A stretch of DNA of 64,000 nucleotides, from positions 186,001 through 250,000 of the forward strand of contig NZ_ML660182.1 of NCBI RefSeq assembly GCF_007004735.1, read 5' to 3'. The translations under genes and the position numbers were made by a program. This document shows, piece by piece, positions 13,274-18,216 of this stretch. Source of the stretch: Salinigranum halophilum. GTDB taxonomy: Archaea; Halobacteriota; Halobacteria; Halobacteriales; Haloferacaceae. Under the pieces are notes generated by a model, which was not told the DNA's origin, did no database searches, and saw only the letters and a list, made by a program, of their open reading frames with translations. The first letter of the stretch is position 1. Every line of letters begins with the position of its first letter.

Positions 13274-13912
13274 ATGAACGCGACAGTCACCGTCGTCTCG
13301 GTCCACGACGTGGGACCGGACACCGTCGCCATCGAGTTCGAAACTCCTGCGGAGTTCTCGGCGCTCCCCGGTCAGTTCGTGAAACTCGCCGGCGAGGTCG
13401 ACGGCGAGGAGTACGCCCGCTTCTACACCCTCTCGTCGCCCGACGTCGAGGACAGCTTCGAGGTCACCGTCGGCGTCAGCGAGGAGGGCGGCCCGTTCTC
13501 GCGACATCTCGCGGCGCTCGAACCCGGGGACACACTGGAGATGCAGGGACCCTTCGGCTCGGACCACTACGAGGGCGAGTCACGGGTGGTGGTCCTCGCG
13601 GGCGGCCCCGGCGTCGGCCCCGCGGTGGGCATCGGCGAGCGCGCGCTCGCCGACGGGCACGACGTGGCCATCGTCTACCTCGACGACGCGCCCGCACACG
13701 AGACACGCCTCGAGGAACTCGCCGCCGTCGGTGCCACCGTGATGATGGACGACGCCGACGCGGACCTCGTGGTCCACCTGCGAGACGCGCTCTCGGGCGC
13801 GAGAGACGACACGGTGTTCGTCTACGGCTTCGCCGACTTCGTCGACCGGGCGACGGCCGCCCTCGACGAACTGGGACACGGCGGCGAACTGAAGGTCGAG
13901 AACTTCGGCTGA
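13274..13912 (+). CDS. FAD/NAD(P)-binding ferredoxin reductase-like protein
   Basis: The 212-residue protein has the two-domain ferredoxin-NADP reductase fold: a flavin-binding barrel with RFYTLSSP (the RxYS motif, about residue 55) and PFSRHL, then a nucleotide-binding domain with LAGGPGVGPAVGIGE. It lacks a ferredoxin domain, so its electron partner must be separate. It lies divergent from korAB, whose product is reduced ferredoxin, so a link between the two is possible but only inferred. A T-rich box (gcttttccc, about 13241-13249) about 25-33 bases before the ATG indicates a leaderless promoter. Confidence 0.87.
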   Translation: MNATVTVVSVHDVGPDTVAIEFETPAEFSALPGQFVKLAGEVDGEEYARFYTLSSPDVEDSFEVTVGVSEEGGPFSRHLAALEPGDTLEMQGPFGSDHYEGESRVVVLAGGPGVGPAVGIGERALADGHDVAIVYLDDAPAHETRLEELAAVGATVMMDDADADLVVHLRDALSGARDDTVFVYGFADFVDRATAALDELGHGGELKVENFG

Positions 13913-13913
13913 G

Positions 13914-14729
13914 TCACTCCCAGACCGTCGCGACGGCCACGAGGAGCGACCCGCCGAACCACCCCACGAGCCCGACGACCCCGGCGAGCGCGCTCCCCGC
14001 ATCGCGTCCGCTCACCGCGCCGACGACGAGGTCGAGGACGAGTCCGCGGAACGCACTCGCGGGCGAGAGCGCGACCGTCAACGGCAACACCTCAGGCGAG
14101 AGGCCGCCGGCCAGCCCCGCGACGACGCTCGCGTCGATTCCGACGAGGAACGCCACGGCGAGCGCGACGACGACCGCGAGCGCCTGGCGGACGCTCCGGG
14201 CGGCCGCCGACACCGCGAGCGCGACCGCGAGCGCGACGAGACCGAAGACGACGGTGAGGACGGTGAAACGGACGAACAGCCAGAACGAGTCGGCCGCCTC
14301 GTTCGCCGCGATGAGGTCCGTCCGCCCGGGTGCGAGCGTCGAGCCGACCACGCCCGCGACGACGAGCGTGACGATGAGGACGCTCGCGACGAACACCGCC
14401 CGTCCGAGATACGCGCCGAGGACGTACTCCACACGGGTGAGCGGGTACGTGCGGATGGCCTCCAACTCCCCCGAGGCGCGGTCGTCGAGCGCGGCTCGAT
14501 AGCCCGCCGCGAAGGCGAATAGCGGGACGAGCACCTCGACGGCGAACAGCAGGTCGAGCGCGAGCGGGACGAACCCGCCCGCGCCGCTCCCCGCGACGAC
14601 GACGCCGACGACGCTGACGAAGACGACGGCCCCGAGCGCGAGGACGGACCAGGTCCGCACGACGGACCGGAGTTCACGCGCGGCGACGGTGAGCGCGCGG
14701 GCACGACCCGCACGCTCGACGAGGCTCAC
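13914..14729 (-). CDS. nosY: NosY-like ABC transporter permease
   Basis: The 271-residue protein has about six transmembrane segments and the ABC-2-type permease features of NosY (LVERAGRARALTVAARELRSVVRTW at the start, SGELEAIRTYPLTRVEYVLGAYLGR in the loop). With NosF and NosD it should move sulfur or copper-related cargo needed for copper-centre assembly. Its GTG start at 14729 overlaps the nosF stop in GTGA, so it is the last gene of a coupled nosL-nosD-nosF-nosY operon. No nosZ occurs in the window. Confidence 0.85.
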   Translation of the reverse strand: MSLVERAGRARALTVAARELRSVVRTWSVLALGAVVFVSVVGVVVAGSGAGGFVPLALDLLFAVEVLVPLFAFAAGYRAALDDRASGELEAIRTYPLTRVEYVLGAYLGRAVFVASVLIVTLVVAGVVGSTLAPGRTDLIAANEAADSFWLFVRFTVLTVVFGLVALAVALAVSAAARSVRQALAVVVALAVAFLVGIDASVVAGLAGGLSPEVLPLTVALSPASAFRGLVLDLVVGAVSGRDAGSALAGVVGLVGWFGGSLLVAVATVWE

Positions 14730-15613
14730 CGGCGCTCACCCCCTCGTTCGAGACCGGTCCGGACGGTGGGTGCCTCGTCCGCACCGCCGGAGATGGCGTC
14801 GAGGAAGACGTCGACGAGGCCGTCGGCGTCGGCCGTCCGGACCAGGTCGTCCGGTGCGCCGTCGGCGACGAACGCGCCGCGGTCGAGGACGACCACCCGG
14901 TCGGCGGTCCGCTCGACGGAGACGAGGTCGTGTGAGGCGAGCAGCACCGTCCGGCCGTCGTCCGTAAGGGCTCGGACCGTCTCGAAGATGTGCGCCGAGA
15001 TGGCCGGGTCGAGACCGCTCGCGGGTTCGTCGAGGACGAGCACCGTTGGGTCGCCGAGGAGCGCCTGCGCGAGGCCGAGCAGCCGCGTCATTCCGCCCGA
15101 GAGCGCCTCGACCTTCCGATTGCGGACCCCCGCGAGGCCGACCTGGTCGAGCACCGCGTCGACGTCGACGTCCTGTGCCGCCTCGGGACCGAGCAGGTCC
15201 GCGTAGAACCGCAGCGTGTCCACGACAGAGAAGCCGGGGCGAAACGACGGCTGCTGTGGGAGGTAGCCGACCGGACGCACGCCACGGCCCGTGACGTCGA
15301 CCCGGCCGCTGTCGGCGGCGAGGACGCCCGCGACGATCCGGAGGAGCGTCGACTTCCCCGACCCGTTGGGGCCGACGAGACTCACGAGCGTCCCGGCGTC
15401 GACGGCGAGCGAGACGCCGTCGAGCACGGTCACGTCGCCGAAGCCGTGACGGAGGTCGGTGACCGCCACCGCCGACCCACGCTCGTCCGCCCGTGGAGCG
15501 TCCTCGCCGTCGCCCTCGCGCTCGCCGTCGCCGCTCGACGCCTGCTCGTCGCGCCGCCCGGCGTGGTCGCTGTCTGACCGTGCCGTCCGGGTCTCCGAGT
15601 TCGGCTCGGTCAC
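14726..15613 (-). CDS. nosF: NosF-like ABC transporter ATP-binding protein
   Basis: The 295-residue ATPase carries Walker A GPNGSGKST, the signature LSGGMTRLLGLAQALL, Walker B VLVLDEPASGLD and the His-switch ASHDL. It starts with an unusual acidic N-terminal extension of about 50 residues before the ABC domain (VAVTDLRHGFGDV). I chose GTG 15613 because it forms a TGA/GTG arrangement with nosD that was altered by a 35-bp tandem duplication; other GTG codons at 15664 and 15629 come from the duplicated segment or other frames. It energises the NosY permease. Confidence 0.87.
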   Translation of the reverse strand: MTEPNSETRTARSDSDHAGRRDEQASSGDGEREGDGEDAPRADERGSAVAVTDLRHGFGDVTVLDGVSLAVDAGTLVSLVGPNGSGKSTLLRIVAGVLAADSGRVDVTGRGVRPVGYLPQQPSFRPGFSVVDTLRFYADLLGPEAAQDVDVDAVLDQVGLAGVRNRKVEALSGGMTRLLGLAQALLGDPTVLVLDEPASGLDPAISAHIFETVRALTDDGRTVLLASHDLVSVERTADRVVVLDRGAFVADGAPDDLVRTADADGLVDVFLDAISGGADEAPTVRTGLERGGERR

Positions 15614-15685
15614 GTGGGCACCCTCCCACGCTGTTCGCCGTCGGTCACGTGGGCACCCTCCCACGCTGTTCGCCGTCGGTCACGT
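15606..15685. repeat. 35-bp tandem duplication at the nosD-nosF junction
   Basis: A 35-bp unit runs from 15606 to 15640 and again, identically, from 15641 to 15675, followed by a further 10 matching bases (15676-15685). On the coding strand each copy contains a GTGACCGA element; the first copy supplies the nosD stop (TGA at 15645-15647) and the second supplies the nosF GTG start at 15613. Because 35 is not a multiple of three, the duplication separated a probable GTGA stop/start overlap into a 31-base gap. Confidence 0.95.
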
Positions 15686-17591
15686 TCGCGACGACGACCG
15701 GATTGACCGGCGACGCCCGCGGCGACTGGTCGACGACGCCCGCCGACCGGAGTCCCGAGAGGTCCGTGCCGGTCGCCCGCAGCGCGACGGCCGACGGGGC
15801 CTGCGAGACGGTCCACGCCGCCGGCTGTTCGCGGAGCGCGCCGTCGACCGGTCCAGTGGGTCGGTACGGTCGGTCGAGCGAGCCGTCCCCGTCGGCGTCG
15901 GGGATGGGCAGGTCACCCCAGTAGTTGCCCTCGCCGCTCCGAGACCAGGTCCGGAGGGGGCCACGGCCGGTCTCGACCTGCAGGTCGTTGTCGACGAAGT
16001 CGTTCCGGACGACCCAGTTCGTCGGGAAGAGGGTTGTCGCGCGGACGCCGACGTCGTTGCCGGCGACGACGTTCTCCTCGTACACCGAGCGGTGGCCCGA
16101 CACGGAGAGGCCGTGGCCGTTGTCGACGAGGACGTTCCGCGCGTAGTAGCTGTCGCTGCCGACGGGGATGAAGCCGTACTCGGAGTCGCGGATGTCGTTG
16201 CCCACGACGACGTTCTCGACCGGCCGGGTCATGATGATGACGCCCGCCCGGGTGTCCCGGATGGTGTTGTCCGCGACCGTCCCCCGGGAGGTGTACATGA
16301 AGTGGACGCCGTACCGGCCGCCGGTCATGTGGTTGTCGCGGACGACGAAGCCGTCCGCGCGGTGGGTGTAGACCGCATCGCGCCCGCCGACGAACGTGGT
16401 CCCCTCGACGAGCGCTCGCGACTGCATCAGGACGACGCCCATGAACCCCTCGCGGGGGTCGTCCGTCCCTTCGACCCTCGAATCGAGCACCGCCGCCCGG
16501 TCGGAGAAGCGGACGATGACGCCGCTGGCCGGCGTGTCGACGGTGACGTCGTGGACGACGGAGCCGTTCGCGCGGTGCATGACGACGCCGGCGTCGCCCT
16601 GGCCGTACGCGAACTCGACCACCCGCGACCAGTCCTCCTGGGTGAGGTTCTCGCCGTGTGGTCGGCGCTGGGTTCCGTTCGGGCCGACGCCGTCGATGCG
16701 GAGCGACGACACCGCGACGCGGGCGTGTCGAAGCGTCAGCACCGAGTCGGTGCCGTTCCCCCGGAGCACCGTCGCGTTCCCCGCACCGACGAGCGTGACC
16801 GGCTTCTCGACGGAGAGGTTCGTCACGTTGTAGACCCCCGCTGGGAGCCGAACCGTCGTGTTCGGTGGGGCCGCCTCGAGCGCGGCCGCGAGCGTCGGCG
16901 CGTCCGCTCCGACGACGACCGACGTCGGGCGGTCCAGCAGTGTGCGAGCGTCGGTCGCGACACCGTCGGCCCACGCGTGGTCGGCCGCGACGCGCGACTC
17001 GAACCGCTCGCGGCGGCGGTCGAGCGGGTTCTCCGCGGTCCGCTGGAGCGTCTCCCAGTCGACGACCCGGCCGCCGTGTTCGTCGCGGAACGACTCGGCG
17101 TCGGCCCGGTCGGAGAAGGAGACGGCGAGTTCGCGGCTCGGTGCCCGCGCGGCGCTCCCGACGACGAAGGCAGCGTCCTCGGCGCGGGTCCAGCCGACGG
17201 CCCGGCCGCGCTCCGTCGTGAGGTAGCCCTCGGCGGTGAGCACGGGCGTAACCGTCGAGAAGTCGGAGACGAACACGGCGAGCGGCTCGCCGAAGCCCGC
17301 GCGCGTCTCGGGTGAGGCGAGCTCTCCGGCGGCCGTCTCGACGCCGTAGTAGCCGACGACGAAGCGGTACTGCGAGAAGTACACCTCCGCGCGAGGGATG
17401 TGGAAGTCCTCGGTCTCGGCGCGGTTGACGTCGACGTAGGTCATCCCAGTCGACAGCGTCCTGTCGAACGGGACCGGCCTGAGCTGGTCGCCCGCGGTGG
17501 GGCCGAGTGCGAACGCGCCGCTGGAGACGACGAGCACGCCGAGGAGGACCGCCGCGACGACGCGCACGGCCCCGGGTGTGACGAACGTCAT
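15645..17591 (-). CDS. nosD: NosD-like beta-helix protein with N-terminal NosL-like domain
   Basis: The 648-residue exported protein starts with a hydrophobic signal/anchor (about residues 8-30). Residues about 50-190 resemble the nosL product: AVFVSDFSTVTPV matches AFYVTDYSTVDYR of NosL, and residues 159-174 are identical to NosL 166-181. The CxxCGM metal-binding motif of NosL is missing from this copy. From about residue 225 to the end it is a right-handed beta-helix (VVIGN/DN repeats, ENYWGDLPIPDADGDG), the NosD/CASH fold. NosD with NosF and NosY is required for copper-sulfur centre maturation in denitrifiers. The gene is 25 bases downstream of nosL. Confidence 0.88.
   Translation of the reverse strand: MTFVTPGAVRVVAAVLLGVLVVSSGAFALGPTAGDQLRPVPFDRTLSTGMTYVDVNRAETEDFHIPRAEVYFSQYRFVVGYYGVETAAGELASPETRAGFGEPLAVFVSDFSTVTPVLTAEGYLTTERGRAVGWTRAEDAAFVVGSAARAPSRELAVSFSDRADAESFRDEHGGRVVDWETLQRTAENPLDRRRERFESRVAADHAWADGVATDARTLLDRPTSVVVGADAPTLAAALEAAPPNTTVRLPAGVYNVTNLSVEKPVTLVGAGNATVLRGNGTDSVLTLRHARVAVSSLRIDGVGPNGTQRRPHGENLTQEDWSRVVEFAYGQGDAGVVMHRANGSVVHDVTVDTPASGVIVRFSDRAAVLDSRVEGTDDPREGFMGVVLMQSRALVEGTTFVGGRDAVYTHRADGFVVRDNHMTGGRYGVHFMYTSRGTVADNTIRDTRAGVIIMTRPVENVVVGNDIRDSEYGFIPVGSDSYYARNVLVDNGHGLSVSGHRSVYEENVVAGNDVGVRATTLFPTNWVVRNDFVDNDLQVETGRGPLRTWSRSGEGNYWGDLPIPDADGDGSLDRPYRPTGPVDGALREQPAAWTVSQAPSAVALRATGTDLSGLRSAGVVDQSPRASPVNPVVVANVTDGEQRGRVPT
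17071..17118. repeat. 48-bp direct repeat, copy inside nosD
   Basis: Positions 17071-17118 are identical base for base to 17675-17722 in nosL, in the same reading frame. The segment encodes residues 159-174 of NosD (FSDRADAESFRDEHGG). Flanking bases differ at once on both sides. Confidence 0.95.
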
Positions 17592-17616
17592 CTATCCGGC
17601 CACCTCCATGCCGGCG

Positions 17617-18216
17617 TCACCGTCCGAGGCTCGCGATGGTCGCTGGGGTGACGTCCCCGTGACGCATCAACTGCCCGCCGTGTTCGTCGCGGAACGACTC
17701 GGCGTCGGCCCGGTCGGAGAAGCCGATGAGGTCTCGGCCCATCGCGCCTTTCACTTCGCTGGCGACGACGTACGTGACCGTCTCGGCCGAGACGAACGCC
17801 TCGGCCTCGGGGTGGGTCGAGATGAGCGTGTCACCCCCCTCGGTGAACGTCCGGTAGTCGACGGTAGAGTAGTCCGTCACGTAGAACGCGGCGGCCTCCC
17901 AGCCCTCGTCGCGGCGTTCGAAGTGGAACTGATACGCCTCCCAGGTGCTGTCGAACCGCGCCGGGTTGGCGTGCCCCGCGGGCTCGCGGCCGGGGTAGAA
18001 TATCTCGGTCGAGGGACCGGGATGGTTCGGGATGACCATCCCGCAGACGTCGCAGCTGTGTTCCTGGGTGAGGGTGATGGCTGCGGGGACGTCGCCCCCA
18101 CTCGCACCCCCATCTCCGGAGAGGGCGCTGCACCCGGCGAGAGAGGCGGTACCGAGCGCCGCCGCCCCTGCGAGGACCGTCCGTCGGGAGACCGGAGACC
18201 GCGTCTGTTCGCACAT
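17617..18216 (-). CDS. nosL: NosL-like copper-binding lipoprotein
   Basis: The 199-residue lipoprotein has a twin-arginine signal (SRRTVLAGAAALG) and a lipobox LAGC, so it is exported folded and anchored outside the membrane. The metal-binding motif CDVCGMVI follows at about residue 54-61; NosL proteins bind Cu(I) through such Cys/Met residues and deliver it to the copper centre of nitrous oxide reductase. Residues 166-181 are identical to part of NosD. It is the first gene of the nosL-nosD-nosF-nosY operon; a TATA-like cgaataagc (minus strand, 18240-18249) points to a leaderless start at 18216. Confidence 0.92.
   Translation of the reverse strand: MCEQTRSPVSRRTVLAGAAALGTASLAGCSALSGDGGASGGDVPAAITLTQEHSCDVCGMVIPNHPGPSTEIFYPGREPAGHANPARFDSTWEAYQFHFERRDEGWEAAAFYVTDYSTVDYRTFTEGGDTLISTHPEAEAFVSAETVTYVVASEVKGAMGRDLIGFSDRADAESFRDEHGGQLMRHGDVTPATIASLGR
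17675..17722. repeat. 48-bp direct repeat, copy inside nosL
   Basis: This copy matches 17071-17118 exactly and encodes residues 166-181 of NosL. The two copies are 604 bp apart in direct orientation, so recombination between them would fuse nosL to nosD in frame. Confidence 0.95.

Follow-up and report, generated by a model that had tools for sequence, protein, structure and literature searches.

Among the closest described counterparts of the locus reported here is the NosDFY(L) complex of P. stutzeri (PDB 7o0y, 7osf-7osj and 7znq), which has the same gene set of NosL, a beta-helix NosD, NosF and NosY. In that system NosD carries no NosL-like domain and serves NosZ, while copper binding by bacterial NosL has been discussed in terms of Cys and Met ligands (Cys-x-Met/CxxCGM; PMC6530538). 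The presence of nosD, nosL or nosF is taken as a marker of the ability to reduce N2O. Within the haloarchaea, the NosZ-linked NosD of Haloferax larsenii (plasmid NZ_CP078065.1) is likewise a beta-helix protein encoded beside an ABC ATPase and a permease. A fused protein has already been annotated as 'NosL/NosD' in GenBank (Natrinema thermotolerans, CP031304.1, DVR14_20635), and the NosD of H. mediterranei is listed as 'NosL family', with no nosFY reported there (PMC9240420), a likeness by annotation. Neither the CP031304.1 record nor PMC9240420 describes a paralog split, independence from NosZ or a client. The fusion is therefore already visible in database annotation (Pfam, GenBank), while no description of a NosL domain in NosD, or of a NosZ-independent archaeal nosD, was found in the open-access PMC literature. 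With respect to sequence exchange between neighbouring genes, the most similar known case is that of mtrA-1 and mtrA-2 of methanogens, operon-mate paralogs of which one has an extra fused domain and which are homogenised by gene conversion (PMC4632066); rare long-lasting concerted evolution in prokaryotes has also been described (PMC6053082).

The locus analyzed here lies in Salinigranum halophilum (assembly GCF_007004735.1), on contig NZ_ML660182.1 at positions 186,001-250,000; this whole stretch of 64,000 nt is referred to as the window, and coordinates are given within it. The operon, read on the minus strand, consists of the following features.

17617-18216, minus strand: nosL, encoding 199 aa with a Tat/lipobox-like N terminus; a separate copper-chaperone gene (PF05573, E=5e-41 over positions 2-130 of 131)
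18037-18054, minus strand: CxxCGM copper motif (NosL residues 55-60), which 77/78 haloarchaeal NosLs retain
17740-17742, minus strand: second conserved Met of NosL (Met159, in KGAMG), Met in 78/78 NosLs
17675-17722, minus strand: 48-bp patch, nosL copy, the likely donor
15645-17591, minus strand: nosD-like gene, 648 aa (PF05573 and PF05048; AlphaFold2 mean pLDDT 90.4)
17034-17456, minus strand: degenerate NosL-like domain of NosD, residues ~46-186
17071-17118, minus strand: 48-bp patch, nosD copy, the likely recipient as judged by the exact repeat and ortholog comparison
16938-17027, minus strand: helix of 30 residues (189-218), predicted to connect the NosL-like domain with the beta-helix (AlphaFold2, DSSP)
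15912-16925, minus strand: right-handed beta-helix, NosD-like, residues ~223-560 (PF05048, E=2e-28; Foldseek match to 7osf_A, E=8e-15)
14726-15613, minus strand: nosF-like ABC ATPase, with a GTG start at 15613 (PF00005, E=3e-28)
13914-14729, minus strand: nosY-like ABC-2 permease (PF12679, E=4e-15)

The NosD-like protein is thus arranged as a membrane or signal helix, a NosL-like domain, a long helix and a beta-helix. Its NosL-like domain had been proposed from the DNA letters, as a diverged copy that had lost the copper motif, and both parts of this proposal were borne out. Residues 62-184 matched PF05573 (NosL) with 47.8 bits against a curated cutoff of 24 (E=2e-12), and BLAST aligned NosL with NosD at 41% identity across 78 residues (E=4e-13), with YVTDYSTV of NosL paired with FVSDFSTV of NosD as originally noted. 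Of the two structure predictions that had been suggested as a check, that of NosD was carried out using AlphaFold2, which modelled the domain alone with a pLDDT of 89.7. When this model was compared with the PDB by Foldseek, only NosL chains gave significant matches (probability 1.00; 7og7, 7znq and the 7osf-7osj series, 2hpu), the best being 7og7 (E=1.3e-7, TM-score 0.66 by target length). On the strength of this predicted model, residues ~46-186 of NosD almost certainly adopt the NosL fold. The model of the full protein best matched the NosD of 7osf and 7o0y; both the beta-helix and NosL folds of P. stutzeri therefore match the haloarchaeal models, although the sequence match of P. stutzeri NosD is limited to residues 351-625 of the haloarchaeal protein.

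To follow the domain through the order, 101 fused NosDs from 96 Halobacteriales genomes were collected by similarity to the fused protein. Every one of them had kept the domain complete and in frame, which means that it was never lost within this subfamily and is not a statement on every haloarchaeal NosD. The CxxCGM motif was found in none of the 101 proteins, and at the position of the second conserved Met, which the S. halophilum protein also lacks, nearly all of them have Ser, Ala or Gly. Residues P66, G80, G101, A165, G174 and W179 were invariant in the fused domain. A profile of the domain detected fused NosDs only inside the order when 393 genomes of the phylum were searched, the sole outside match being a 167-residue frame, and all 22 matches among 72,556 plasmids were haloarchaeal. 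A search for related loci with the single protein returned mostly Haloferax. Several genomes (G063, G294 and G058; loci including L074 and L091) were observed to have two fused NosD paralogs, in tandem or nearby, so the subfamily itself has duplicated.

The original prediction named this protein NosD without distinguishing it from the NosD of nitrous-oxide reductase, and missed that it belongs to a separate, fused group. If it were an ordinary NosD whose nosZ had been overlooked or recently lost, the adjoining nosL, nosF and nosY genes would be expected, and NosZ is indeed present in 21 of 80 genomes with a fused NosD. It is absent, however, from the other 59, S. halophilum included. Full-length NosZ was found neither in the S. 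halophilum genome (a draft assembly with an estimated completeness of 100%) nor in its three congeners, both operon-bearing ones among them, nor in several relatives, as searched with models TIGR04246 and TIGR04244, for which Haloferax G314 served as a positive control (738 bits); PF18764 matched no genome, was uninformative for NosZ and was replaced by these models. Moreover, haloarchaeal nosZ loci carry a separate, short NosD in 20/20 cases, mostly of ~460-510 residues and lacking the NosL domain (Pfam was run on six); that of H. larsenii, at ~460 aa, passes TIGR04247 and belongs to a different clade. Against the 300-bit cutoff of TIGR04247, five fused NosDs tested scored 174-208 bits (S. 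halophilum, 204) while three NosZ-linked NosDs scored 350-376. A beta-helix tree of 28 fused and 13 NosZ-linked proteins resolved two groups, both of them supported at 99% or more. The split of the fused clade, an old one, from NosZ-linked plus bacterial NosD was supported at 100/100, with four proteobacterial NosDs on the same side as the NosZ-linked proteins. An ordinary NosD is accordingly quite improbable, and the fused NosD is very likely a distinct paralog. Taken together, the distribution of NosZ, the short NosD at nosZ loci, and the tree and model scores indicate that nosLDFY here is a NosZ-independent paralog system. A further possibility is that the fused domain is a functionless relic of a NosL that fused early and is decaying. 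While the loss of all copper ligands would agree with this, decay would have deleted the domain in some lineages, and its retention in every fused NosD, with invariant residues of its own, makes a relic improbable. As a whole, the interpretation of the nosL, nosL-nosD fusion, nosF and nosY operon as encoding a haloarchaeal complex for copper-site assembly that is paralogous to NosDFY(L) is probably correct. In two Haloferax genomes, a NosL near nosZ was itself observed to be devoid of CxxCGM (L148:14037-15551 and L165:4423-5583); in the former the copper site reads KRDDQGGM, with both cysteines gone.

An exact scan together with a repeat search agreed with the initial observation that 17071-17118 and 17675-17722 are identical over 48 nt and in the same codon phase. 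No third copy at three mismatches or fewer was found within the window, and shuffled sequences gave an expectation of 0. Both copies encode FSDRADAESFRDEHGG, which corresponds to residues 159-174 of NosD and 166-181 of NosL. The tract begins with the third base of the codon preceding this peptide and ends at the second base of the final Gly codon, the third base of which differs (GGC in nosD, GGG in nosL). In the predicted NosD model the patch forms a strand (157-159), a helix (162-172) and the turn which follows. The original prediction had attributed the identity to either recent gene conversion or strong constraint on the peptide, and as a check had proposed asking whether the patch is more similar within genomes than between species.

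The operon is carried by only three genomes of the genus, and the patch peptide is identical in the NosLs of all three (3/3). The other two NosDs of the genus read FSARADAEAFADAHGG and FGDRADAATFAAEYGG; they depart from that of S. halophilum by 4 and 7 residues out of 16 and, in the DNA, by 7 and 10 bases out of 48. At the patch, S. halophilum NosD matches its own NosL at 47/48 bases and its orthologs at 41 and 38/48, while immediately outside the patch it resembles the orthologs and not NosL. These comparisons show that its patch peptide has shifted from the state of the NosD orthologs to the NosL state of the genus. A near relative as well as a NosL from the same genome was available for 47 NosDs, and only two of these were nearer to the own NosL at the patch: S. 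halophilum, by 9 nt over the nearest NosD ortholog, and the next best, G161, by 1 nt. With respect to within-genome similarity, the proposed excess was marginal. The S. halophilum NosD is nearly as close to the NosL of congener G394 (46/48; 44/48 for the other congener) as to its own; the quartet comparison therefore showed no within-genome excess (within versus cross, 86 versus 87 with G394; 84 versus 82, or +2, with G392). Across the clade the expectation was not upheld, as no general within-genome excess of NosL/NosD similarity was detected over 82 same-genome pairs (Wilcoxon p=0.56), and on this basis it was rejected that the two genes evolve in concert across haloarchaea in general. In this respect the locus differs from mtrA-1/mtrA-2, where conversion has been long-lasting and covers the domain; here a single short patch is concerned.

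The appropriate baseline for chance identity is provided by homologous NosL/NosD pairs and not by random DNA. Four patch positions (F1, A7, F10 and G16) are nearly invariant in both proteins, and this could be read as ancestral retention, in which the identity dates back to the common ancestor of nosL and nosD and strong constraint has preserved it since. However, strong constraint on the peptide is not supported because 4 and 7 of the 16 residues are different in the two congeneric NosD orthologs, and the 101 NosDs show 95 different patch peptides; retention is thus very improbable. A more serious alternative requires no conversion, the identity having arisen by chance from the most conserved NosL motif, GC-biased codons and a few parallel substitutions. 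Codon bias and the shared motif do bring unrelated genomes to 25-30 nt of NosL/NosD identity, 10 of 16 codons are expected to be identical when the same peptide is given, and the congener's NosL, to which the S. halophilum NosD is identical at 46/48, could not have been a donor. Nevertheless, the longest run in 7,796 cross-genome pairs was 33 nt and involved the same S. halophilum NosD; once this was excluded the longest was 30 nt, as compared with 48 in the S. halophilum pair. Runs of at least 33 nt occurred in 2/82 same-genome pairs (S. halophilum, 48 nt; G265, 33 nt) versus 0/7,719 cross-genome pairs, S. halophilum NosD again excluded. Given the peptide and local codon usage, identical codons at the first 15 positions have P~2.6e-4, before the uptake of NosL residues by NosD is explained. 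In addition, patch position 11 is Arg in 1/101 NosDs (that of S. halophilum) versus 16/78 NosLs, and this Arg reflects a two-base change from the congeners' GCC to CGC, both copies use the minority Glu codon GAA (0.20), and both borders of the tract are sharp. Chance identity is consequently unlikely, although it retains appreciable weight. As a single genome is available, an artefact of assembly or sequencing that duplicated the patch can also be envisaged; it is hardly credible, as each copy is part of an open frame and has flanks of its own and the independent lineage G265 has a 33-nt identical tract in the same place. Of the two explanations first offered, conversion is the one favoured by these data, and we infer that the patch is likely the product of one short, recent gene conversion with the polarity nosL to nosD.

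The signal of this conversion rests on only about four nucleotides, and these diagnostic positions would lie in patch codons 9, 11 and 13. The converted tract would be at most 48 bp, with a minimum of ~13 bp, and may have been seeded by motif DNA that was already near-identical and ~0.6 kb apart. Such an event is probably of little functional consequence. It would illustrate, on a small scale and with a defined polarity, ectopic conversion between neighbouring genes of an archaeal operon. A second candidate conversion was noted at L040 (G265), with 33 identical bases that end at the same Gly codon and include the minority codon GAA; the relatives G191 and G286 differ in NosD at the patch region.

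The neighbourhood of fused nosD genes was surveyed for indications of a client. NosL was encoded within 300 bp of fused nosD in 63 of 78 genomes, and fused nosD was usually followed by NosF and NosY genes, with homologs of the ATPase beside it in 54 genomes and of the permease in 70. A tally of neighbours by Pfam and NCBIfam yielded mainly NosL, NosF, NosY and HTH regulators, and protein clustering then revealed SCO1 and DUF420. SCO1 is well established as a chaperone that supplies copper to CuA, and DUF420 proteins have been linked to oxidase assembly. SCO1/SenC (PF02630) was found near 14/80 fused loci, as was DUF420 (14/80), versus 0/20 nosZ loci in each case (~395 kb in total), the links being concentrated in a few genera. 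At L079 fused nosD lies directly next to a COX2 gene that has a CuA motif, and at L088 a COX2-like gene lies 2.4 kb away. Within the 64-kb S. halophilum window no homologs of SCO1, DUF420 or COX2 were found; SCO1 homologs exist elsewhere in the genome. The SCO1, DUF420 and COX2 neighbours suggest loading of a CuA-type site, and from this genome context a client such as COX2 of cytochrome oxidase may be put forward tentatively. An HVO_0163-type winged-helix regulator was encoded near fused nosD in 18 genomes (L058, L087 and others), and in 13 genomes this was the case for a small membrane protein of the DUF7471 type. The two may be further parts of the fused-nosD system.

A working model can be outlined, based on the predicted structure and the bacterial complex. 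The exported beta-helix subunit bears an N-terminal NosL-fold domain free of copper ligands, while the separate NosL retains them. The fused domain could then act as a built-in, ligand-free docking or adaptor module, placed where the NosL subunit binds in bacterial NosDFYL, and ATP-driven changes in NosFY might be relayed through it. Cu(I)-loaded NosL would subsequently pass copper to a client protein other than NosZ, for which a CuA-type site, for example that of COX2, would be the likeliest. Whereas P. stutzeri NosD serves NosZ, the S. halophilum protein occurs in a genome in which no full-length NosZ was found. That the haloarchaea possess a second NosDFY-type machine, independent of NosZ, in which a fused non-copper NosL domain is a permanent docking subunit and which matures CuA of respiratory heme-copper oxidases, is a conceivable but speculative extension of this model. 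Should the fused form act on another copper site, gene names would wrongly mark most haloarchaeal carriers (59/80) as capable of N2O reduction, and if the machine matures CuA, the 'nos' genes in most such genomes would be uninformative about N2O reduction. The fusion also makes it possible to test cleanly the role of NosL on NosD besides copper binding.

Two further features of the locus were observed. A FAD-binding oxidoreductase gene (13274-13912, plus strand) is convergent to the nosY-like gene, and a homolog occurs near fused nosD in 10 genomes of the same family. A perfect 35-bp tandem duplication (15606-15675) spans the nosD stop and the nosF start. The two congeners have a 4-base overlap (GTGA) of the nosD stop with the nosF GTG. 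In S. halophilum, the duplication leaves the nosD stop (15645) 31 bases ahead of the usable nosF start (15613), while the GTG of the other copy opens only a 12-codon frame; translational coupling of nosD and nosF is possibly weakened as a result.
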